From Roseospira visakhapatnamensis (GTDB taxonomy: Bacteria > Pseudomonadota > Alphaproteobacteria > Rhodospirillales > Rhodospirillaceae), in contig NZ_JACIGK010000006.1 in assembly GCF_014197915.1 (NCBI RefSeq), positions 62,001 through 126,000 of the forward strand: DNA of 64,000 nucleotides, read 5' to 3'. A model generated the notes under the pieces. The model was not told the DNA's origin. It ran no database searches and saw only the letters and a list, made by a program, of their open reading frames with translations. Shown here one piece after another: positions 36,581 through 51,384 of this stretch. Position numbers and translations under genes: made by a program. Within the stretch, counting starts at the first letter, position 1. The number at the start of each line of letters is the position of its first letter.

Positions 36581-39500
36581 GTGACGACGGAGTCGTCCGC
36601 CCGTGTGGCGCACCTCGGGACGGCCCGCGACGGGGGCGGTCGCCCCGGCAGCGCTGACGACTCTTCCACCCGGGCGCGCCCGGGGCCCGGTCTGGCCCTG
36701 ATCCGCGTCCTGCTTGCCCTGGTGGCGGTGCTGATCCTCGGGCTGTCGCCGCCGTCGGCCGGGGCGCAGGAGGCCGCGCCGACAGAGGCGGATCCCGCGC
36801 CCCTGACCATTGCCGTCGTCGACGACTATCCCCCGTTCGCGGTCCAGTTGCCGGACGGCACGCCGGCGGGGCTTCTGGTCGACCTGTGGCGGGCCTGGTC
36901 GGAGACGACTGGGCGGCCCATCGTCCTTGAAACCTGCGGGTGGTTCGAGAGCCTGGCCGCCGTGCGCGAGGGACGCGTGGACATCCACGCCGGCCTGAAC
37001 CAGACGGCGGAGCGGGCCGAGTGGATGGCGTTCTCGGCGCCCATCCACAGGACGGAGTCCCGCCTGTTCTTTCGCGCGACCGACCCGCGCGGGGTTCGGT
37101 CGGTCGCGCGCATGGGCGGTCAGCGGGTCGGGGTCATGCGCGACACCCTCCACCACGACCACCTGACCCGAACCCATCCGGACCTTCAGACGGTCCCCTA
37201 CGGCGACGGCGTGCCCCTGGTCCAGGACCTGGTGTCCGGCGCCCTGGATGCCGTCTTCAACGAAGTGCCCGCCATGATCGGCGTGCTTGACCGCATGGGC
37301 CTGCGCGGGGCCGTGCTCCGTGGACCGGAGATGCTGTCCAGCAACACCCTGCATGCCGGGATCGCCCGCGACCGCCCGGCGCTGGTGACGGCCGTCAACG
37401 AGGGGCTGGCCGCCCTTCCCGCCGGGGTCCTGGCCGACATCGACCGGCGCTGGCTGGCCGATCCCCGGGACCGCTACCACTGGCCGGCCGCCGCCGACGT
37501 GACGCTGACCCCCGACGAGAGGGCATGGCTGGAGACCACGCCGGCCATTCGCCTGGCTGTCACCGACTTCCTCGATCCCCTGGATATCGTCGGCGAGGAC
37601 GGCAGCCACGCCGGCTTCAACGCCGACTTCATTCAGCGGCTCGCCCAGGCGCTCCAGACGGACATCGTCCCGGTGTTCTATGGGTCCTGGTCGGATCTGG
37701 AGAGCGACCTTCTGGATGGGGCCGTGCATGGGGCCCTCGGCCTCTCGCGCACGCCCGAGCGGAGCCGGCATCTCATCATGACGCATCCCTACGCTTACGA
37801 TCCCGTGATCGTGGTGACGCGCGAGGATGACATGGACATCCAGGCGTTCCGTGACCTCGCGGAGCGCACCGTCAGCATGGCGCGCGGGAGCCCGGGCGAG
37901 GGCGAGGTGCGGGGACACCTGGGAACCGCCGGAACCCTGGTGTCCGTGGACGACGATGGCGAGGGATTGACGCGGCTGGTCGAGGGCGGCGTGGACGCCC
38001 ACGTGACGACCCGGCTGTCTTACACCCGGCACCAGCAGCGGGCGCTTGTGCGAGGGGTGCGGATCGCCGCCCGGCGGGACCTGGAGAGCGGGGCGCTGCG
38101 CATGGCCGTCCACGCCTCGACCCCGCAGGTGTTCTCCATCCTCCGCAAGGGACTGCACGCCATTCCGCGCGAGGACCTGGCGCGGTTGCGCGATCGCTGG
38201 CTGACCGCGCCCCTGGACGCGCGCTGGCTGGAGACCCTGAGCGAGGAGGAACGCCGCTGGATCGCCACCCACCGCACCGTCCGGGTCGGCCTTATGTCCG
38301 ACTCACCGCCCTTCAACACCATCGGTGTCGACGGGGACCCCAAGGGCATCTCGGCCGATATCCTGCGCGGCGTCGCCGAACGGGTCGGCCTGGGTGTGGA
38401 GATGGTGCCCGGCGCCTGGAGCGATCTCTATGGCCAGTTGGCGGAGCGGCGCCTCGATGTCCTGATGGACGTCACCCCCAGGCCCTGGCAGCGCGACCGG
38501 ATGCATGTCACGGCCCCCTACCTCTCCATAAACCACGCCATCATCGCGCCCCGGACCCGCCCCGTCCTGGAGGATGAGAGCGGCTTGCGCGGCTTGACGG
38601 TGGCCCTGGACGCCGGGTCCGGCAACGTCGCGTGGTTCCGGAGCAATGAGCCCGACGTGGCCATCCGCGAGTACACCGACACGCGGGCCGCCCTGGCCGC
38701 CGTGCTGCGCGGCGAGGCTGACGCCTACGTGGGCAACCGCGTGGTGGCCATGTTCGTGATGAAACAGCAGGGCCTGCACGACCTTTCCGTCCATGGGCGT
38801 CTGTCGCGGTCCCCGACCGACCTCGCCATGGGTGTGCGCAAGGACTGGCCCATCCTCGCCGGCATCCTGGACAAGGGCCTGAGCGCCCTGGGGCGCGTGG
38901 AGGTGCGGACCATCCTCACGCGCTGGGCCGGCGAGAGCGTGGACGGGCGTCCCCGCCTGGCGGCGGAACCGCCGGCCGGGTCGGATGTCTGGGACCGGGT
39001 GGCGCCTCCCGACGTGACCATCCCGGAGTCGAACGCCGATCTGCGGTTGCTGGCCGGGATCGTGGTCGCCGTGATCCTGATTCTGGCGGCGCTGGTCTGG
39101 CTGCTGCTGCGATCGGGCCGAAGCGAGAGCCTGGCCTTGCAGATGGGCTCGCGGCGTCTGCGTCTTCTGGTGCTGGGGGCGCTGGCCGTGCTGGTCCTGC
39201 TGGTGCTCACCGTGACCTGGGTGGTCTACCAGCACAACCGGGTCCGCATTCTTGAAGTCGTCGGGAGCAACCTGCAAACCGTCCTGGGCAGCACGGTCGA
39301 GCGTCTGAGGATGTGGACCGACGCCCGCGAACGCCAAGTCGCCCAGTTGGGGCGCGACCCGGATCTGGTGGCCCTGACTCGGCGGCTGATGGAGCTGCCG
39401 CGCGACCGCCTGGTGGTCGAGGCGTCGCCCGCGCTGGGCGACCTGCGCCGCTTCTTCCGGGACAAGGGACGGGGCTTCGGGACCACGGGCTTCGCCATCG

Positions 39501-42500
39501 TGGCGTTGGACGGCACGGCCATCGGCGCCACCGACGACGTGGACCTGACGATCGAGGATCTGCTGATCGAACGCCGGCCTGACGCGTTCAACCGCCTGAT
39601 GGCCGGACAGGCCATCACCATTCCACCGATCCGTCCCGATCCGTCGGAGGCCGACGCGGATGCGGAGCAGGACACCGCTACGGCGGCCTCCCAGGTCGCC
39701 GATCCCCCGGCCGTCATGTTCTTCGCCGCGCCCGTCATCGATCCCTACGGGACGGTGCTGGCGATCGTGACCCGGCGGGAGGACCCCATGGGGGACTTCG
39801 CGCGCATCCTGGAGACGGGCCGCATGGGGCGCAGCGGCGAGACCTATGCCTTCGACCGGACGGGCGTGATGGTCTCGCGCAGCCGCTTCCGGACGGTCCT
39901 GGAAGACACCGGCCGGCTTGCGCCCGGACGGACGAGCATCCTCAACCTGGAGGTCCGGGTGCCGGCAACCCGGCGGGGGGCGTGGGACCCAGGTCCGGAG
40001 GCGGGCCAACTGACCCGCATGGCCCAGAGCGCGCTGGGGGGGCGCGCTGGCCTGGACCTCCAGGGATACCGAGGCTACCGCGGCGCGCTGGTCATGGGGG
40101 CCTGGACCATGGACGGTCCCCTGGGGCTGGGCATCGCCTCGGAAATCGATGCCGCCGAGGCGCTGGGCCCCGTGACCACGCTGCGCGACACCATGGGCGC
40201 GATCCTGCTGCTGACCCTGGTGCTGTCGGCGGGCGCCACGGTGGTCACGCTGATGCTGGGCGAGCGCACCAGTCGTGTCCTGCTGCGGGCGCGGGATGAG
40301 TTGGAGGAGAGGGTCCGGGACCGAACGCTGGAACTGGAGAGGACATCGGACCGCCTGTCCCTGGCGCTGGAGACCATGTCCAACGGGCTGTGTGTCCTGG
40401 ACGGCGACCTGCGCTTCCTCATGTTCAACGATGTCTATCAAGACATGATGGATGTGCCGGGCGACCTGATCGCACCGGGCGCGCCGGCGGAGCGGCTCGT
40501 CCGTTTCCTGGCGGAGCGCGGCGACTATGGAACGGGCGCCAGTGTCGAGGATCTGGTCCGCGATCGCATGCAGAGCGTGCGAAGCCCGTCGGACACGGTC
40601 CGGCAAGTCCAGACGCCCAAGGGCCGCGTGCTGGAGGTGCGCACGCGCACCGCCCGCACCGGCCTGACTGTGGTCGCCCTGAACGACATCACCGAACTGA
40701 AAGAGAAGGAACGGGACCTGACGCTCAGCGGCGAGCGCCTGGACATGGCGCTCAAGGGGGGCAGCCTGGGGTCGTGGGACGTGGACCTGATCACCGGAGA
40801 GACCATCGTCAACGACCGCTATCTGGAGATGCTGGGCTACACGCGCGACGAGGTCGCGGATGTGCGCGCCCTGTGGCTGGACAGCATGCATCCCGACGAC
40901 CGGCCCGGGGTCCTGGCCGCCGGCGATGCCTACCGGACCGGTCGCACCCAGGCCTACGAGGTCGAGTACCGCGCCCATACCAAGGACGGCGAGGAACGAT
41001 GGATGATCTCCAAGGGCGCGGTGGTCAAGCGTGACGAGACGGGGAGGCCCACCCGCATGGTGGGCACGGTCTCGGACGTGACCGAGCGGCGCGCGGCCGA
41101 GGAGGCCTTGCGCGACAGCCGGCAATTGCTGGAAAGCGTCATCGAGAACAGCGGCGCCGTCATCTTCGCCAAGGACATCGAGGGGCGCTATATCCTGGTG
41201 AACCGGCAGTGGGAGGCCCTGACGGGCTTAAGCCGCGACGCGGTCATCGGCCGGCACGACGACGAGATCTTCCCGGAAGATCTCGCCGCCGAGCTGCGGG
41301 AGCACGACCGGACGACCATCGCCGCGCGGGTGCCCCAGTCGTTCGAGGAGGTGGCCAGGGCGGAGATGGGCAACCGCATCTTCCTGACCATGAAGGTTCC
41401 GCTGTTCGATTCCGACGGCGCCGTGGAGGGGGTGTGCGGGATTTCCACCGAGATCACCGACCGCAAGCGCATGGAGGTCGAGTTGATGACGGCCAAGGAA
41501 AAGGCCGAGAGCGCGACCCGCGCCAAGTCCGCCTTCCTGGCCGCCATGAGCCACGAGATCCGCACCCCCATGAACGGCGTCGTGGGCATGATCGACCTGC
41601 TGGGCGAGACCGAGATGGACAGCGAGCAGCGGCAGATGCTGCGCATTGTGCGCGACAGTGCCTTTGCCCTGCTACAGATCATCAACGACATCCTCGACTT
41701 CTCGAAGATCGAGGCGGGCAAGATGGGCCTGGAGACGATGCCCATCTCGGTGCGGGATGTGGTCGAGAGCGTCTCCGAGATCCTGGTTCGCAACGCCGAC
41801 GCCAAGGGGGTGCGTCTGGTCGCGTTCATCGACCCGGCCATTCCGGACAGGGTGATCGGCGATCAGGTGCGGTTGCGCCAGATTCTGTTCAACCTGATGG
41901 GCAACGCCATCAAGTTCACCGGAAGCGGTGATGGGCGGACGGGCCTGGTCCAGGTGCGGGCCGACCTGGCCGAACCCCTCCACGACGGCATGGCCTGGGT
42001 CCGCCTCCAGATCATCGACACCGGAATCGGCATCTCGGAACAGGGTCTGGCGACGCTGTTCCAGCCCTTCACCCAGGCCGAAAGCTCAACCACCCGGCGG
42101 TTCGGCGGCACTGGCCTTGGGTTGACCATCTGCCGCAGCCTCACGGACCTGATGCGCGGGCGGATCACGGTGCACAGTGTGGAGGGCGAAGGCTCCACCT
42201 TCACCGTCACCCTGCCGATGCCGGTGGTCGACGCTGGCGAGGCCGTTCAGGACGAACCCGACCTGACCGGCTTGCGCGTGCTGCTGGTGGGCACGGACCC
42301 GAACCTGTTCGCGTCCATGCCGGCTTACATCGCCGGGCGGGGCGGCACCGTCCAGGAACAGGCCGACCTGTTCACCGTCGCCATGGCCTTCCGGCGTGGT
42401 GTCAGGGCGGGCACGCCGGCGCATGTCATCGTCTTTGGCCCCGAGTACAGCCCGGACCAGGTCGATCCCGTGATCGACGTCATGCGGGCGGAGTCCGCCG

Positions 42501-43573
42501 ACGTCGATCTGCCGGTGCGCTTTGTTCTGGTCACCGACGACCGCCGCGTCCGTAAGGGGCTGGTGACGCCGGATCTGGTGGTCGTGGACGCCAGTCCCAT
42601 GAAGCGCTCGGCGTTCCTGCGGGGCCTTGGCGTGGCCTGCGGCCGCGCCAGCCCGGACCTGGAGGACAGCGTCGAGCGCCTGACGGCGGGGGTGCGGTCC
42701 GCGCCCACGCCGGAGGAGGCCGCCGCGCGGGGATGCCTGATCCTGGTGGCCGAGGACAACCCCACCAACCAGGACGTCATTCGCCGGCAATTGCGGGCGC
42801 TGGGCTATGCCTGCGAGGTGGTCGACAATGGCCGGCGCGCGCTGGAGGCGTGGGCGAGCGGCCGGTTCGCGCTGGTGCTGACCGACTGCCACATGCCGGA
42901 GATGGACGGCTACGAAATGACCGGGGCCATCCGGGCGACGGAGGCCAGGGCCGATGAGATCGACCGCATACCCATCATCGCCATCACCGCCAATGCGCTG
43001 CAGGGCGAGGCCGATCGCTGCCTGGCCGCCGGCATGGACGACTATCTCGCCAAGCCTTTGGAGATGTCCAAGCTGAAGCGGCTGCTGGCCCGCTGGATGC
43101 CGGTGGGGCACTCCGGGCCCTTGACCGCGCCGTTGGCGTCTGGAGCCGCGTCGGACGGGGAGACCACGGCGCCTGGCGAACCGGCCTCAGGGGTGCCGCC
43201 GTCCGGCACGGTCCAGGACGATCCCGTCACCGGGCTACTGGCCGGCGGGGGGGTGGATCCCACCTACCTGCGCGAGACCTTCGGCGACGACCACGACATG
43301 ATCCGCGACATCCTCAAGGACTTCGTGGCGCCGGCGCGGGGCATTCGCGGGGAGATCGACGCGGCCCACGCCGCCGGTGATCCCGCCGCCGTGGGGGCCG
43401 CCGCCCACAAGCTGAAGTCGTCGTCCCGGGCTGTCGGGGCCACCGCCCTGGCCGACCTGTGCCAGGACCTGGAAACCGCTGGCAAGGCCGGGGATCGGGA
43501 CCGGATCGAGGCTCGCTATGGCGATCTGGCCGGCCTGATGGACCGCGTGACCGGCGTCATCGAGCGTCTGTGA
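36581..43573 (+). CDS. Giant BvgS-like hybrid histidine kinase with three SBP-like sensor domains and a Cache-like domain
   Basis: This is a 2,330-aa protein with a GTG start after GGAGGAG. A signal/anchor helix (~39-62) precedes three consecutive SBP_bac_3-type domains (~72-305, 310-550, 555-790). These are joined by BvgS-like linkers ([18 protein letters not shown]). Helices at ~825-843 and ~865-884 follow, then a ~310-residue dCache-like region and a helix at ~1204-1227. Next come three PAS-type domains, HisKA (H1658 in [11 protein letters not shown]) and HATPase (GGTGLGL). The first receiver lacks the acidic residues; the second is intact (E2058/D2059, D2102 in [11 protein letters not shown]). 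A terminal HPt has H2276 in [10 protein letters not shown]. It probably senses several solutes; its response regulator is unidentified, the c-di-GMP regulators upstream being candidates. Confidence 0.92.
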
Positions 43574-46815: not shown

Positions 46816-48528
46816 CTACAGGGGGATGAACCCGATCATGGTCATGTCGTCACGGCGCGGTTCGTCGCCGCGATAGGCCTCCAATTCGCGTTGAATGGCC
46901 GCCAGTTGCTCGGCCATCGGCAGGCCCTGGTTCTCGACGATGATGCGGCCCAGCCGCCGGCGACCCAGCAAGCGCCTGGGCTCACCGCCCATCTGGTCGG
47001 GGACGCCGTCGGTGGGCATGTAGACGGCCGTGCCGGCCCGCACCGTCATGACGTGATCGGTGAAGCGTTCGGGGGCCGGCAGGGTGCGATAGCCCAGGTA
47101 GGCGCGATCGCCGCGCACCTCGCGCAGCGCGCCGTCCTCCACGTACAGGAGCGGCAGCCCGGCCCCCGCGAAGGTCAGCGTCCGGGCGCGGCGGTCCCAC
47201 AGGCAGATGGCCGCCTCCAGGCCATCGTCCGAATCGGACTCCGGCCGGTCCTGGCGCAGCCGCGCGCGCACCTGTCCGTCGATGGCCCGCAGGATGTCGG
47301 AGGGCCGGCGCAGGCCCTCGTCATGGAGCGCCCGGTCAAGGGCCGAGGCCACCACCAGGGTCATGAAGGCCCCGGGCACGCCATGGCCGGTGCAGTCGGC
47401 GACCAGCAGAAGGGCGGTGTCGTCGTCGAACCGCTCCAGCCAGAAGTAGTCGCCGCCGACCACGTCCAGGGGATCCCAGCAGACGTGAAGGTCGCGCACC
47501 AGCCCCGTGAGGGCCGTCTTGTCGGGCAACAGCGAGGTCTGGATGCGCCGGGCATAGTGGATGCTTTCCAGCAGCAGGCGGTTGGCGTTGGCCAGGGCCC
47601 GATGGGTTTCGTCCAGGCGCGCGAAGGCGGCCTCCGTTTCCTCCTTCTCCGCCGCCAGTTCGTCCATGGCGTCTTCGAGGTCCCGGGTGCGCAGCGCGAC
47701 GCGCCGCTCCAGGTCCTCGGTCAGGGCGCGCAACGCCGCCTCGGCCTTGTCCCGGGCGTCGAGGCTGTGCTGAAAGGCGCGCAACAGGGCATTCAGCGCC
47801 TGAGCCACATGCCCCAGTTCATCTCGCCGGTGACCGCGCGGGGCCGGGATGGGGTGCCCCGCCGGATGGGTCGGGTCGACCCGGGCGATGGCCACCGACA
47901 GGCGGGACAGCGGGCGCACCATCAACACCAGGAACACCAGCGCCAGAATGGCGGAGATGACCGCGGCTCGGGCGGCGCCGCCGGCCAGGGTGGCCAGGGC
48001 CCGGTCCCGGTAGCGTTCGCCCAGGGCCTGCGGCGACAGGCTGACCATCAGGGAGCCCACGCCTTCCACGCCGGTCGGCGACACGTAGACCAGGGGTTCC
48101 CGGTGGTGGACCACGTCCGAGAACAGGGTCGCGAACCAGCCGGTCAGGCCCCCGTCCGGACCGGCGCCGCGATCCAGGTCGGCCAGCACCCCACCGAAGT
48201 TGTCGCGCAGGTCCACGCGGGCGACGAGGGCATTGCGGGCCAGGCCGTCCACCACTCCCTCGGCGATGGCGGGGTTGAGCTGAAAGGCCGCCTCGGCCGC
48301 CGAATCCCGCACCAGCGAGACGGTGCGATCCAGTTCGGCGACCACCTCCGCCCGGTCGGCGCGCAGGTCCATGGCCAGTTCCAGCGCGCCGCCCAGCAGA
48401 CCGACCAGCAAGGCGACCAGCAGCGTCACCAAGGCCAGGCGCGGAGTCAGGCCCCGCCAGACCGACATTGGCGTGACCGAGACCGACGGCACGGCGGCCA
48501 TGCGGTCCTGCGAGACCGGGTCCGTCAT
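46816..48528 (-). CDS. siaA: SiaA-like membrane PP2C-type (SpoIIE) phosphatase with HAMP domain
   Basis: This 570-aa protein has TM helices at ~31-52 and ~183-205 flanking a ~130-residue periplasmic region. HAMP (~206-256), a long coiled coil (~255-318) and a SpoIIE/PP2C phosphatase domain (~345-570) follow. Metal-binding motifs are DVVGGD (355-360) and ADCTGHGVPGA (377-387), with a late PTDGVPDQ and the terminal RRDDMT. The ATG at 48528 has GGAG 10 bp upstream, 7 bp after the stop of the solute-binding protein gene. In Pseudomonas, SiaA dephosphorylates SiaC. The SiaB-, SiaC- and SiaD-like genes upstream in the same operon support that role here. The symbol is by architecture and context. 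Confidence 0.88.
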   Translation of the reverse strand: MTDPVSQDRMAAVPSVSVTPMSVWRGLTPRLALVTLLVALLVGLLGGALELAMDLRADRAEVVAELDRTVSLVRDSAAEAAFQLNPAIAEGVVDGLARNALVARVDLRDNFGGVLADLDRGAGPDGGLTGWFATLFSDVVHHREPLVYVSPTGVEGVGSLMVSLSPQALGERYRDRALATLAGGAARAAVISAILALVFLVLMVRPLSRLSVAIARVDPTHPAGHPIPAPRGHRRDELGHVAQALNALLRAFQHSLDARDKAEAALRALTEDLERRVALRTRDLEDAMDELAAEKEETEAAFARLDETHRALANANRLLLESIHYARRIQTSLLPDKTALTGLVRDLHVCWDPLDVVGGDYFWLERFDDDTALLLVADCTGHGVPGAFMTLVVASALDRALHDEGLRRPSDILRAIDGQVRARLRQDRPESDSDDGLEAAICLWDRRARTLTFAGAGLPLLYVEDGALREVRGDRAYLGYRTLPAPERFTDHVMTVRAGTAVYMPTDGVPDQMGGEPRRLLGRRRLGRIIVENQGLPMAEQLAAIQRELEAYRGDEPRRDDMTMIGFIPL

Positions 48529-48535
48529 GGGTGCG

Positions 48536-49327
48536 TTACTCCGGCGGATCGACGCCGTGCTCCACGCCGTGCTCGTCCTTGAGCGCGGTAATGCGGTTCG
48601 CGTTGGTCTCCACCCAGGCGTCAAGCTGGGTGATCACGTCGGGATGGGCGATGGTGGACATCAGGTAGGACCCGTAGTCGTGCGGCAACCCAGGCGCGAA
48701 CACCAGGGCGCCGGGCTGGTTCAGGTCCTGGTCCAGCACGCGGTTGACCACGGCGATGCTGGCGTAGGCGGCGTCCACCCGGCCGGCCAGCACCTGGCGC
48801 ACCAGGGCCGCGAAGTCGGCGTTCTCGGACAGCGTGACCGTGCCCGCCTCGATCCGGTCGGTCCAGGGCCAGGGGCCGAATCCGGTCACCGTGCCCAGGG
48901 TTTTCACCGCGTCGGGCGCGATGTCGATGCGATCCGCCCGCACCACCGAGGCATCCAGGAAGTCGGCCACGGGACCGCTGTATACCACCGCGTTGTCGGC
49001 CACGAACGCCGTGTTCCAGTTCGGGTTATCCGGAAACTTGAAGTCGATGGTCCCGGCCGCCAGGCTGGCGTACAGGCGCCGCACCGGCATGGGGCGATAG
49101 TCGAACCGCAGCCCCTGATCGGCGGCGAAGGCGTCGAGGAACTGCCGGGCATAGCCCACGTAGGCGCCGTCCTCGATCCCGTAGGCCGGCAGGTAGTCCA
49201 GGTTCTCGACGCCGACGACGTAGGCGCGCGCGGATTCCTGGGCGTGCCCCCGGTCGGAACCCGCGATGCTCAGGACCAGCGCCATGGCCAGCGTGGCGCC
49301 GATCCCCCGCGCGGACAGGGTGTGCAT
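48536..49327 (-). CDS. Orphan periplasmic solute-binding protein (SBP_bac_3 family) in Sia locus
   Basis: This 263-aa protein has a signal peptide (residues ~1-29, ending GHAQ) and a type II periplasmic-binding fold. It starts YVVGVENLDYLPAYG and continues through DFKFPDNPNW and a hinge-crossing segment near ARADR. The ATG at 49327 follows GGAGG by 5 bp. No ABC permease or ATPase gene is nearby. Instead it is the penultimate gene of the Sia-like operon, 7 bp before the membrane phosphatase gene. This suggests that it presents a ligand to the periplasmic part of that phosphatase; that role is inference. Amino acids or similar small solutes are typical ligands. Confidence 0.87.
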   Translation of the reverse strand: MHTLSARGIGATLAMALVLSIAGSDRGHAQESARAYVVGVENLDYLPAYGIEDGAYVGYARQFLDAFAADQGLRFDYRPMPVRRLYASLAAGTIDFKFPDNPNWNTAFVADNAVVYSGPVADFLDASVVRADRIDIAPDAVKTLGTVTGFGPWPWTDRIEAGTVTLSENADFAALVRQVLAGRVDAAYASIAVVNRVLDQDLNQPGALVFAPGLPHDYGSYLMSTIAHPDVITQLDAWVETNANRITALKDEHGVEHGVDPPE

Positions 49328-49491
49328 GGTGACCTCCGGTGAGCGGGACCGATGATGGTCATGGGCCTGATGGCCGGGAGGGGACCGACGCGAGGAGTCG
49401 CACCGCCCGCTTGCGCCGATGCATGGCCGGTGCCGAGGGGACCGGCGGCCCCGGCCCGGGTCCACGATCGGGAGGATGGCGAGGGCGGCGG

Positions 49492-50343
49492 TCACGCCGC
49501 GCCACCGGTGACCGGCGCGGCGGTGACGACGCGGTTTCGGCCGGTGCGCTTGGCCTCGTAGAGGGCGTTGTCGGCCCGGTGCAACAGTGAGTCGAGGCTT
49601 TCGTCCGGCTCGTGCTCGGCGACGCCGAAGCTGGCCGTGAACGTCACCGTCCCGCCGTCCGGCAGGCCCACGGCGCAGACCGCCGTCGCTTCGCGTAGAC
49701 GTTCGGCGATATGCTGCCCGCATGTCAGGGGGGTGTCGGGCAGCAGCACCGCGAACTCTTCGCCCCCCAGGCGGCCGGCCAGATCCAGCGTCCGCAGGGC
49801 ACCGCGCAACACCTCGCCCATGGCGCGGAGAACGGTGTCCCCGACGGCATGTCCATGAGAGTCGTTGATGTGCTTGAACCGGTCCAGGTCGAGCATGACG
49901 GCGGTGACCGGGCCGCGCGTGCGATGGCGGCGGGCCAGTTCCCGCTCGGCCAGATGCATGAAATGGCGGCGGCCGAACAACCCGGTCAGTTCGTCGATGG
50001 TGGCCAGCCGCTGCAACTCCATGGCCAGCCGTTCCCGCTCCTCGATCTCGGTGCGCAAGACGGAATTGAGGTCGCGCAGTTCGTCAGCTTGAGCGGTCAG
50101 CCCCTGGTTGGCCTCCTGCAACTCCTCCTGCATGCGATCGCTCAGGCGCACCAGGCGGCTTTGCTCTCGGTAGCTGCGTCGATATGCCTCGGCCAGGTCG
50201 CGCACGCCCCGCGCGACTTCGTCGAGTTTGCGCACCATCTCCTCGGCGTCGCGCAGAACCCGTTCCTCGACATCGAAGAGGGTGTAGTCCCCGGAGCCGG
50301 TCTCGTGGGTGGCGGGTGTGCTCACGACCCGGGTGCTCCTCAT
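49492..50343 (-). CDS. siaD: SiaD-like diguanylate cyclase (coiled coil-GGDEF)
   Basis: This 283-aa soluble cyclase has a long coiled coil (~26-118) leading into the GGDEF domain (ATIDELTGLFGRR start). The active motif is GGEEF at ~193-197, and an RxxD inhibitory site (RTLD) lies five residues upstream. The short coiled-coil-plus-GGDEF layout matches Pseudomonas SiaD, which is switched on by unphosphorylated SiaC binding the coiled-coil stalk. The start is placed at the ATG at 50343. A GTG at 50325 with a better-spaced GAGGAG site, or a TTG at 50394, are alternatives. It is 72 bp after the siaC-like gene. Confidence 0.9.
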   Translation of the reverse strand: MRSTRVVSTPATHETGSGDYTLFDVEERVLRDAEEMVRKLDEVARGVRDLAEAYRRSYREQSRLVRLSDRMQEELQEANQGLTAQADELRDLNSVLRTEIEERERLAMELQRLATIDELTGLFGRRHFMHLAERELARRHRTRGPVTAVMLDLDRFKHINDSHGHAVGDTVLRAMGEVLRGALRTLDLAGRLGGEEFAVLLPDTPLTCGQHIAERLREATAVCAVGLPDGGTVTFTASFGVAEHEPDESLDSLLHRADNALYEAKRTGRNRVVTAAPVTGGAA

Positions 50344-50415
50344 CTTTTCGGCACCAACCAAAGGGCTGGTCGTCTGTAACGCTGGACTAACCAAGATTTA
50401 AGTGGTGGAAAAACT

Positions 50416-50820
50416 TCACGTCTTGGGGGTAGGGCGCATTCGGAACGCGGCATTCTCGAAATCCAGCCCAAAGTCCTCTCCGAATTCCTCCATTGTATCG
50501 TCGTCGGGGTGAAAATGCCAGTTGACGACCACCTCCCGGCCGCGCGCGCCGGCATCTTCCAGCATCTGGAACATGTTCATCAGGGCCTTGGCGCTGCTGC
50601 TGTTGAAATAGGTCATCGCCAGATCGAACGAGACCGGGCGGGTGTCGTCCGATTCCAGGAAAGCGCGCAGGGCGGCCAGAAGCGGCGCGAAGAAGCTCGC
50701 CGAATTCTCGGGGTATGACTCTCCCTCCAGGCGGAACCGGCCCTGGGAAAAATCGAACTCCACCAGCGGCGATCGGTCGGTGGGGGCGATCGAAATGGTA
50801 TCCATGTCCTGTCGTTGCAT
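50416..50820 (-). CDS. siaC: SiaC-like regulatory phosphoprotein (DUF1987)
   Basis: This 134-aa protein (129 if the internal ATG at 50805 is used) has the SiaC core pattern: GESYPENSASFFAPL near residues 33-47, MTYFNSSSAKALM near 69-81, and VVNWHFHPDDDTMEEFGEDF towards the end. In Pseudomonas SiaC the phospho-acceptor is a Thr in the equivalent NTSS loop; here the aligned residue is Ser (S74, NSSS). It is expected to be phosphorylated by the SiaB-like kinase and dephosphorylated by the SiaA-like phosphatase, and to bind the cyclase when unphosphorylated. It starts 3 bp after the siaB-like stop. Confidence 0.9.
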   Translation of the reverse strand: MQRQDMDTISIAPTDRSPLVEFDFSQGRFRLEGESYPENSASFFAPLLAALRAFLESDDTRPVSFDLAMTYFNSSSAKALMNMFQMLEDAGARGREVVVNWHFHPDDDTMEEFGEDFGLDFENAAFRMRPTPKT

Positions 50821-50823
50821 CTT

Positions 50824-51384
50824 TCAGATGAAGGCTTTGATGCAGAAGAACGCTTGGTTGTGTTCGGGGTCAAGCCAGACGATATCGAAGGAGATCGGTT
50901 CGCTCGACCGCCGCGCGATCTCGATCAAGCCGATGGAGGCTCCCTGACTTTCCTCCTCGGGCGGTTCCCTGAGCTTTTCCCGGTAGTACGCCTTCAGTTG
51001 GTCCTTATCAAGGCGCGCCAAGTGGGTCAGCCGTTCACGCAGCGGCTCGGCGCGGGCCGCGTCGACGACGTTGCCGCAGACGACAAAGAAGCGGTCGTCA
51101 TCGACACCGACGGTGACCATGCCGCCGCTCATCTCCGTCGGGGGCTCGGTTCCGGCAATCCGGTCGGACGAGTAACGGATGATGTTCTGCACCTGCTCGA
51201 CGAAGACGGAAAACACCCGTTTCGCGACGTTGGCGTTGGTTTCGCTCAGGGCCATGCTCTTCTTCAGCGCGTTGCCCAAGGTTGTGAGCATGTCCTCGGA
51301 AAGGTAGCCGGTGAACGAAAAAATGATTCCCTGACCGGTCAGCCAGTCTCGATATTCGTTGTAGGACTCGGCCCAGGTCGCCAT
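50824..51384 (-). CDS. siaB: SiaB-like protein kinase (DUF6272)
   Basis: This 186-aa protein belongs to the SiaB kinase family, a divergent GHKL-type fold. Visible family features are IIFSFTGYLSEDML near residues 22-35, a VFSVFVEQVQNIIRYS helix (about 62-77) carrying the N-box-like Glu and Asn, and GMVTVGVDDDRFFVVCGN. A late GASIGLIEIARRS segment corresponds to the glycine-rich nucleotide loop. It phosphorylates SiaC in the known system. The start is uncertain: 51384 gives the most family-like N-terminus, and 51426 is the longer option. It is the first gene of the operon, 101 bp after the coxE-like stop and just past a strong hairpin. Confidence 0.87.
   Translation of the reverse strand: MATWAESYNEYRDWLTGQGIIFSFTGYLSEDMLTTLGNALKKSMALSETNANVAKRVFSVFVEQVQNIIRYSSDRIAGTEPPTEMSGGMVTVGVDDDRFFVVCGNVVDAARAEPLRERLTHLARLDKDQLKAYYREKLREPPEEESQGASIGLIEIARRSSEPISFDIVWLDPEHNQAFFCIKAFI

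Follow-up and report, generated by a model that had tools for sequence, protein, structure and literature searches.

A solute-binding protein gene within a Sia-type cyclic di-GMP locus of Roseospira visakhapatnamensis, a probable periplasmic input to the SiaA phosphatase

A stretch of 64,000 nucleotides from Roseospira visakhapatnamensis (contig NZ_JACIGK010000006.1, positions 62,001 to 126,000), here called the window, was analysed with respect to five minus-strand genes at window positions 46816-51384, transcribed in the order siaB, siaC, siaD-like, solute-binding protein (SBP) gene and siaA-like (Table 1). An earlier reading of the letters alone, the original prediction, had described five leftward Sia-type genes with an embedded SBP, and this was confirmed by Pfam, NCBIfam and PDB sequence searches. 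The intergenic gaps from siaB to siaA measure 3, 21, 164 and 7 base pairs (bp); the short spacing claimed for the whole set holds for the gaps of 3, 21 and 7 bp, the last of which separates the SBP gene from the phosphatase gene exactly as predicted, but not for the 164 bp preceding the SBP gene. The corresponding gap in the relative G039 is 29 bp, with an ATG picked by the analyst, and a promoter and terminator scan of the 164-bp gap returned one site each, at or below what shuffled sequences give, and is uninformative on a second transcription start. The Sia genes of Pseudomonas stand in the order A-B-C-D. The window set differs from SiaABCD of P. aeruginosa in its order, B-C-D-SBP-A, in the added SBP and in a Ser in place of Thr68 of SiaC.

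The Sia core looks intact in sequence. Each of the four Sia partners proposed by the original prediction was placed by Pfam, NCBIfam or PDB matches, and at sequence level SiaB, SiaC, SiaA and the stalk-GGDEF cyclase belong to the Sia partner-switch family. SiaB scored 199.4 bits against the NCBIfam model SiaB_fam_kinase (NF038262, cut-off 85) and was aligned to P. aeruginosa SiaB (6kko_A) with an E value of 5.9e-22, the Glu of FVEQVQNI falling at the place of Glu61, the predicted catalytic residue (PMC7647112, cited, like all the papers below, from part of its text). SiaC matched the Pfam SiaC model (PF09345) with 140.1 bits and 6kko_C with an E value of 8.2e-21, and in the latter alignment Ser74 (NSSS versus NTSS) occupies the position of Thr68, at which the P. 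aeruginosa protein is reported to be phosphorylated (PMC7647112). Ser is also found at this place in G039, G217, G218 and Thioalkalivibrio ALJ3, and the window SiaC is probably phosphorylated on Ser74. The SiaD-like protein was identified by its GGDEF domain (PF00990, 147.2 bits) and an alignment to SiaD 7e6g, and SiaD was its best NCBIfam model, but below the equivalog cut-off (185.7 of 290 bits); GGEEF is present, and five residues upstream of it lies an RxxD which we take to be the I-site. In the stalk, RLSDRMQ at residue 83 fits S82, D83, R84 and Q86 of the SiaC-binding motif of P. aeruginosa SiaD (PMC8457831); two copies of the motif are known there, and inspection of the stalk by eye gave one clear SDRxQ and no second copy. 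All four proteins lie below the equivalog cut-offs of the Pseudomonas NCBIfam models (SiaA 220/700, SiaB 115/225, SiaC 98/150 and SiaD 186/290 bits). With P. aeruginosa SiaABCD the locus shares a kinase, a phosphoprotein, a PP2C phosphatase and a stalk-GGDEF cyclase, together with the SiaC site and one SiaC-binding motif (PMC7647112, PMC8457831), but its SiaA falls under the SiaA equivalog cut-off; it is a variant of the known Sia switch in which the SBP is the new element.

The SiaA-like protein was recognised by Pfam through SpoIIE (78.9 bits, over the cut-off) and HAMP (23.3 bits, slightly under the cut-off of 25), and its PP2C half was aligned to the SiaA PP2C domain 6k4e with an E value of 4.7e-43 and also superposed on it using Foldseek. 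Hydropathy peaks at residues 26-55 and 177-215 mark two hydrophobic segments about 120 residues apart, the second being followed by the HAMP match, a coiled coil and the PP2C domain, and the stretch best matched by the SiaA equivalog model is C-terminal. The 50 Foldseek matches listed for the full model were phosphatase entries as judged by title and matched range, and they did not name the periplasmic fold; CHASE8 matches were sub-threshold and confined to relatives.

The SBP scored barely above the cut-off of SBP_bac_3 (PF00497, 27.6 versus 26.4 bits), and its N-terminus was judged signal-peptide-like by eye from the sequence. Its AlphaFold model is confident, with a mean predicted local distance difference test score of 91.4, and matched amino-acid SBPs in the PDB with a best E value of 3e-15 (Foldseek). 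In amino-acid SBPs the Arg of a T-x-x-R motif and a second Asp hold the alpha-amino acid. Alignments to such SBPs show neither residue to be conserved; the region of T-x-x-R (alignment to 4zv1) is occupied by K-x-P-D-x-x-x-W, whose K, P and W occur in every one of the 27 orthologues compared and whose D occurs in 26 of them. This makes a standard amino acid, bound in the standard pose, an unlikely ligand. An enzyme derived from a solute-binding protein, cyclohexadienyl dehydratase (CDT), which would need a catalytic Glu, was also considered, the basis being only weak profile matches to ancestral CDT proteins, and was rejected.

Table 1. Features of the Sia-type gene set, in transcription order (window positions; aa, amino acids; TM, transmembrane segment)
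Feature	Positions	Strand	Evidence
SiaB-family kinase, 186 aa	50824..51384	-	NF038262 SiaB_fam_kinase; 6kko_A alignment
SiaC-family phosphoprotein, 134 aa, Ser74 at T68 position	50416..50820	-	PF09345; 6kko_C alignment
SiaD-like diguanylate cyclase: coiled-coil stalk with one SDRxQ SiaC-binding motif, then GGDEF	49492..50394	-	PF00990; 7e6g alignment; RLSDRMQ
164-bp gap preceding SBP gene	49328..49491	-	Promoter/terminator scan
Orphan solute-binding protein, 263 aa, signal-peptide-like N-terminal stretch	48536..49327	-	PF00497; AlphaFold; Foldseek
K-x-P-D-x-x-x-W motif (KFPDNPNW) in SBP	49016..49039	-	Orthologue conservation; 4zv1 alignment
SiaA-like membrane phosphatase, 570 aa: TM, periplasmic sensor, TM, HAMP, coiled coil, PP2C	46816..48528	-	Pfam; 6k4e
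SiaA sensor half, residues 24-252, putatively the part travelling with the SBP	47773..48459	-	Orthologue comparison

Joint presence of the SBP and SiaA was assessed in 73 genomes of the family of the window genome. Five contain a strong SBP orthologue (E <= 1.9e-78), with weak matches of 30% identity in two more, and the same five contain a SiaA match spanning the sensor and PP2C halves; nine further genomes have SiaA half-matches only, G091 and G115 matching both halves in different genes. Strong orthologues of the two proteins are jointly absent from 68 of the 73, and the congeners G130, G143 and G155 lack both. The two genes are adjacent in all five genomes. The order B-C-D-SBP-A is found in the window genome, G217, G218 and G039, and its presence in four species places the arrangement beyond chance; a search for this arrangement and for co-occurrence of the SBP with siaA had been proposed by the original prediction as its check. 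The SBP stop codon overlaps the SiaA start in G217 and G218, and in G039 the SiaA frame opens ahead of the SBP stop. As a separate observation, G217 carries a second, divergent SBP_bac_3 gene just upstream of siaB (L149:2727-3695).

For the order, 199 genomes were searched: 23 have a strong SBP orthologue (E <= 1e-58) and 14 more a weak match, and the same 23 contain full-length SiaA, which in G195 is one frame split into two pieces. The Fisher values calculated for family and order take no account of relatedness and are descriptive only. Five genomes outside the order, in a class sample of 385, have strong SBP orthologues. A single-sequence search identified the sensor half in four of five class genomes with the SBP versus three of 40 without it (Fisher P 0.001, kinship and genome size being ignored); the 40 controls were picked by handle number from 374 class genomes without an SBP match at E 1e-20, skipping eight small or incomplete genomes and without matching for size.

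The pairing was also seen where the output domain differs. Relative to the window, G161 has 43% identity in the sensor half and 50% in the SBP versus 24% in the PP2C half, whereas in each of the 19 other orthologues compared the identity of the PP2C half exceeds that of the sensor half. From these identities, G161 has kept the sensor half and the SBP while its output domain became another PP2C type; its gene order is reversed, SiaA preceding the SBP, and no SiaC match was found in its genome. In G683 the SBP orthologue is followed by a 109-residue open reading frame (ORF) and then, 358 bp downstream of the SBP, by a sensor-half protein with HAMP, HisKA and HATPase domains, its sensor half being matched by profile at E 1e-18 with 19% identity to the window.

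SBPs of other kinds stand beside SiaA as well. A second type of SBP, sharing 18-22% identity with the window SBP and 41-77% with its G126 representative, directly precedes a SiaA-like gene in G126, G195, G118, Azospirillum sp. B21, G683, G559, G668, G781 and G871, with SBP-A-B-C-D in a row in G559 and G668. Its members lie at the margin of what Pfam recognises: those of G126, Azospirillum B21 and G683 gave no more than a sub-cut-off SBP_bac_3 match, that of G559 matched no Pfam model and that of G668 a phosphonate-binding model just below the cut-off. Of the seven weak SBP matches in the class, five have such a SiaA-like neighbour and two, in G895 and G909, have none. Thioalkalivibrio sp. ALJ3 has the order SBP-B-C-D-A with a third kind of SBP, of the T-x-x-R type, and in Azospirillum oleiclasticum the ORF of a Peripla_BP_5 protein overlaps that of siaA, with siaB and siaC coming next. 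The two functions are also fused: SBP_bac_3 and SpoIIE were found by Pfam in one polypeptide adjoining or within 2 kb of siaB/siaC at L257, L260, L298, L305, L325, L326 (the congener G155), L333 and L334, and home-made profiles point to such fusions in L332, L337 and L345 too. Domain labels in the large surveys came from these home-made profiles, the named cases being checked with Pfam. The contig scan with a SiaA alignment used generic PP2C patterns, and many Bacteroidetes PP2Cs are among the matches listed; L166, L167, L178 and L204 were chosen from its 80 listed loci for neighbourhood analysis, which is a choice and not a count.

A survey of SiaC across the phylum found 83 places, of which 78 were analysed, omitting the window, G022 (counted with the order), the contig-end fragments G316 and G389 and the sub-cut-off G043. 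By home-made profiles, 11 of the 78 have an SBP match no more than 5 kb from SiaC, in six cases as a separate gene and in five as a large protein, and Pfam confirmed 10 of these with SBP_bac_3 above the cut-off, L248 being the exception. Among the five large proteins, L308 is a hybrid histidine kinase and the other four fuse an SBP to PP2C. The expected number is 2.0 of 78, calculated from a PF00497 density of 231 domains in 81.0 Mb (20 genomes including the 11 positives), which gives a binomial P of 4e-6 for 11 loci and 3e-5 for the 10 confirmed, related genomes not being discounted. Of 32 distinct SiaC loci drawn from the order (window excluded; the set was not blindly chosen), 10 have an SBP match at most 5 kb away. 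The fusion protein at L334:1881-7262 comprises 1793 residues with five SBP_bac_3 domains, PAS domains and SpoIIE, and is encoded directly before siaB-siaC. The window itself encodes, at 36581-43573, a hybrid histidine kinase of 2330 residues with three SBP_bac_3 domains, several PAS domains, a receiver and Hpt, and the genes flanking the Sia set, among those scanned with Pfam, are PhoX, rubredoxin and CoxE.

The comparisons suggest that the SBP is the Sia switch's sensor for a molecule outside the cell, and it appears to belong with the periplasmic sensor half of SiaA and not with a transporter. The interpretation that we favour, and consider probable, is that this Sia partner switch has a periplasmic input of its own, the SBP gating the SiaA phosphatase and hence SiaC and the biofilm signal cyclic di-GMP (c-di-GMP). 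The partnership is supported by joint presence and adjacency, by retention when the output was swapped, by the other SBPs beside SiaA and by the SBP-phosphatase fusions; on these four genomic lines the co-receptor role assigned to the SBP by the original prediction is upheld as far as work with the SiaA periplasmic domain rather than a transporter is concerned, whereas the frequent lack of linkage outside the family does not fit it. As judged from the genomes, the SBP would be exported, would bind a small solute and, ligand-loaded or empty, would dock on the SiaA periplasmic domain of about 120 residues. Docking would act on SiaA by way of TM2, HAMP and the coiled coil, changing PP2C activity with either sign; SiaA and SiaB would set the phosphorylation state of SiaC, and unphosphorylated SiaC would bind the SiaD stalk and raise c-di-GMP. 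The steps downstream of the input are established for SiaA, SiaB, SiaC and SiaD of P. aeruginosa (PMC8457831, PMC7647112).

Several observations weigh against this interpretation. The SBP and SiaA genes are not neighbours in 20 of the 23 order genomes, all of family f22, where they lie on other contigs or at least 11 kb apart (in G022, of the same family, both are at contig ends, so that adjacency is undecidable there); in four f22 SBP neighbourhoods partly scanned with Pfam, housekeeping genes were found at L068 and L069 and an opposite-strand histidine kinase adjoining the SBP at L066 and L080. A recognised sensor gene adjoins only one of six strong SBP orthologues outside the order, the co-occurrence counts are uncorrected for phylogeny, and a more remote form of the sensor half occurs on other receptors in genomes without the window-type SBP. 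The mirror-tree distance correlations over 21 genomes (SBP-sensor 0.82 and SBP-PP2C 0.73; without G161, 0.89 and 0.91) do not discriminate between the two halves. In the phylum survey an SBP is missing from 67 of the 78 SiaC loci; nine have a window-type sensor half, and six of these have no SBP within 5 kb, among them L289 and L306 with the order B-C-D-A, which is also found without an SBP in Methylobacterium variabile (L167). Because of the SBP-less loci in both counts and the occurrence of the sensor half on other receptors, the SBP is not an obligate component of the receptor family. Two further points, the importer beside the G161 pair and the reported cue of P. aeruginosa SiaA, are taken up with the alternatives that they favour.

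The alternative that survives best, although we regard it as unlikely, is that the SBP serves an ATP-binding cassette (ABC) importer whose genes lie elsewhere and shares only its expression with the Sia genes, uptake and biofilm mode being co-controlled. It would account for a fold shared with amino-acid importer SBPs, for the separation of the two genes in f22 and for G161, where the pair adjoins an amino-acid ABC importer and the SBP is separated by 149 bp from a cluster of SBP, permease and ATPase genes; that importer, however, has its own SBP, the Arg and Asp of importer-type ligand binding are unconserved, and it would not be expected that the SBP and the sensor half stay together once the Sia-type PP2C is lost. 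An ABC-like ORF was found within 5 kb in just two of 32 SBP neighbourhoods (six seed proteins; some contigs short), one of which has two long ATP-binding ORFs without a permease match, leaving G161 as the only neighbourhood with an importer. No ABC-like gene lies within 5 kb of the window SBP by the same six seeds, other transporter types not having been searched, in line with the earlier claim that transporter genes are lacking there. The pattern named by the original prediction as contrary to it, relatives with SBP-less Sia loci and the SBP placed with an ABC transporter, was for the most part not encountered: all five full-length SiaA orthologues of the family have the SBP beside them and the transporter association is limited to G161, although SBP-less loci do exist.

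It is also rather improbable that SiaA senses alone, through membrane state or a directly bound ligand, and that the SBP is a neighbour without a signalling role kept by operon inertia. A response to membrane perturbation has been reported for P. aeruginosa SiaA, and the main text of that report contains neither 'periplasmic' nor 'binding protein' (PMC12834913); the six window-type sensor halves without a nearby SBP point the same way. Inertia would nevertheless leave unexplained the varying position of the SBP gene (before B, before A, or between D and A), and the reversed order in G161, the fusions, the adjacency in every family genome with the pair and the joint absence from the remainder all speak against it.

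Some Sia loci elsewhere have other partners. In a second locus of G039 (L085:5092-7238), SiaB-SiaC is paired with a protein that has an adenylate/guanylate cyclase domain. PP2C was not matched beside this pair, and an unlinked SBP-SBP-PP2C protein of the same genome (L329:6747-11546, home-made profiles) could serve it as phosphatase. Histidine kinases with a SiaD-like, probably SiaC-binding, stalk were found at the f22 Sia loci L093:4647-5702 and L094:6676-7698 and, as a hybrid kinase in another genome, at L335:1133-3394, which suggests SiaC-controlled kinases. The SiaB-SiaC pairs that adjoin histidine kinases or a nucleotide cyclase, and the G161 pair with its other PP2C type and no SiaC match, would agree with the SBP being a ligand-dependent SiaA partner whose main output is SiaC or another partner-switch target and not c-di-GMP, but this is very improbable for the window, where the SDRxQ motif is intact and the stalk-GGDEF gene lies inside the five-gene set, as it does in three relatives.

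The favoured SBP-gated SiaA has parallels among known systems. As in NspS-MbaA of Vibrio cholerae and Sinorhizobium meliloti, a periplasmic binding protein would steer c-di-GMP through a membrane receptor (PMC9993111, PMC5646818), but MbaA itself modulates c-di-GMP, whereas the receptor here would be a Ser/Thr phosphatase acting ahead of SiaC and the cyclase. RmcA and CdgH, with fused SBP_bac_3-type domains, likewise use a periplasmic-binding-protein fold as c-di-GMP input (PMC8846402, PMC5431781), but the SBP of the window is a separate protein and the output a PP2C phosphatase. Ligand-loaded SBPs also bind the receptor domains of histidine kinases, chemoreceptors and Ser/Thr kinases, the SBP gene often adjoining the kinase gene (PMC9602780, PMC11113362), and the receptor types listed in the consulted part of one of these papers are chemoreceptors, sensor kinases, c-di-GMP enzymes and Ser/Thr kinases, with phosphatases not among them (PMC9602780). 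For the P. aeruginosa Sia system, carbon availability and membrane perturbation are given as the cue and no ligand is named in the portions of the papers used (PMC7647112, PMC12834913). Searches of openly licensed PMC full texts listed no paper that links an SBP to a Sia locus or describes an SBP-gated PP2C receptor.

Beyond this locus, the chances seem to us evenly divided on a widespread receptor class in which SBPs, separate or fused, gate PP2C Ser/Thr phosphatases that feed extracellular solutes into SiaC switches, SBPs having been recruited repeatedly and outputs swapped, with c-di-GMP as the output here and possibly histidine kinases or others elsewhere. A dedicated soluble SBP makes the cue of a Sia switch testable, as its ligand could be sought by thermal shift or co-purification with the membrane protein left untouched. 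A phosphatase receptor of this kind, if true, would add Ser/Thr partner switching to the systems controlled by SBPs.

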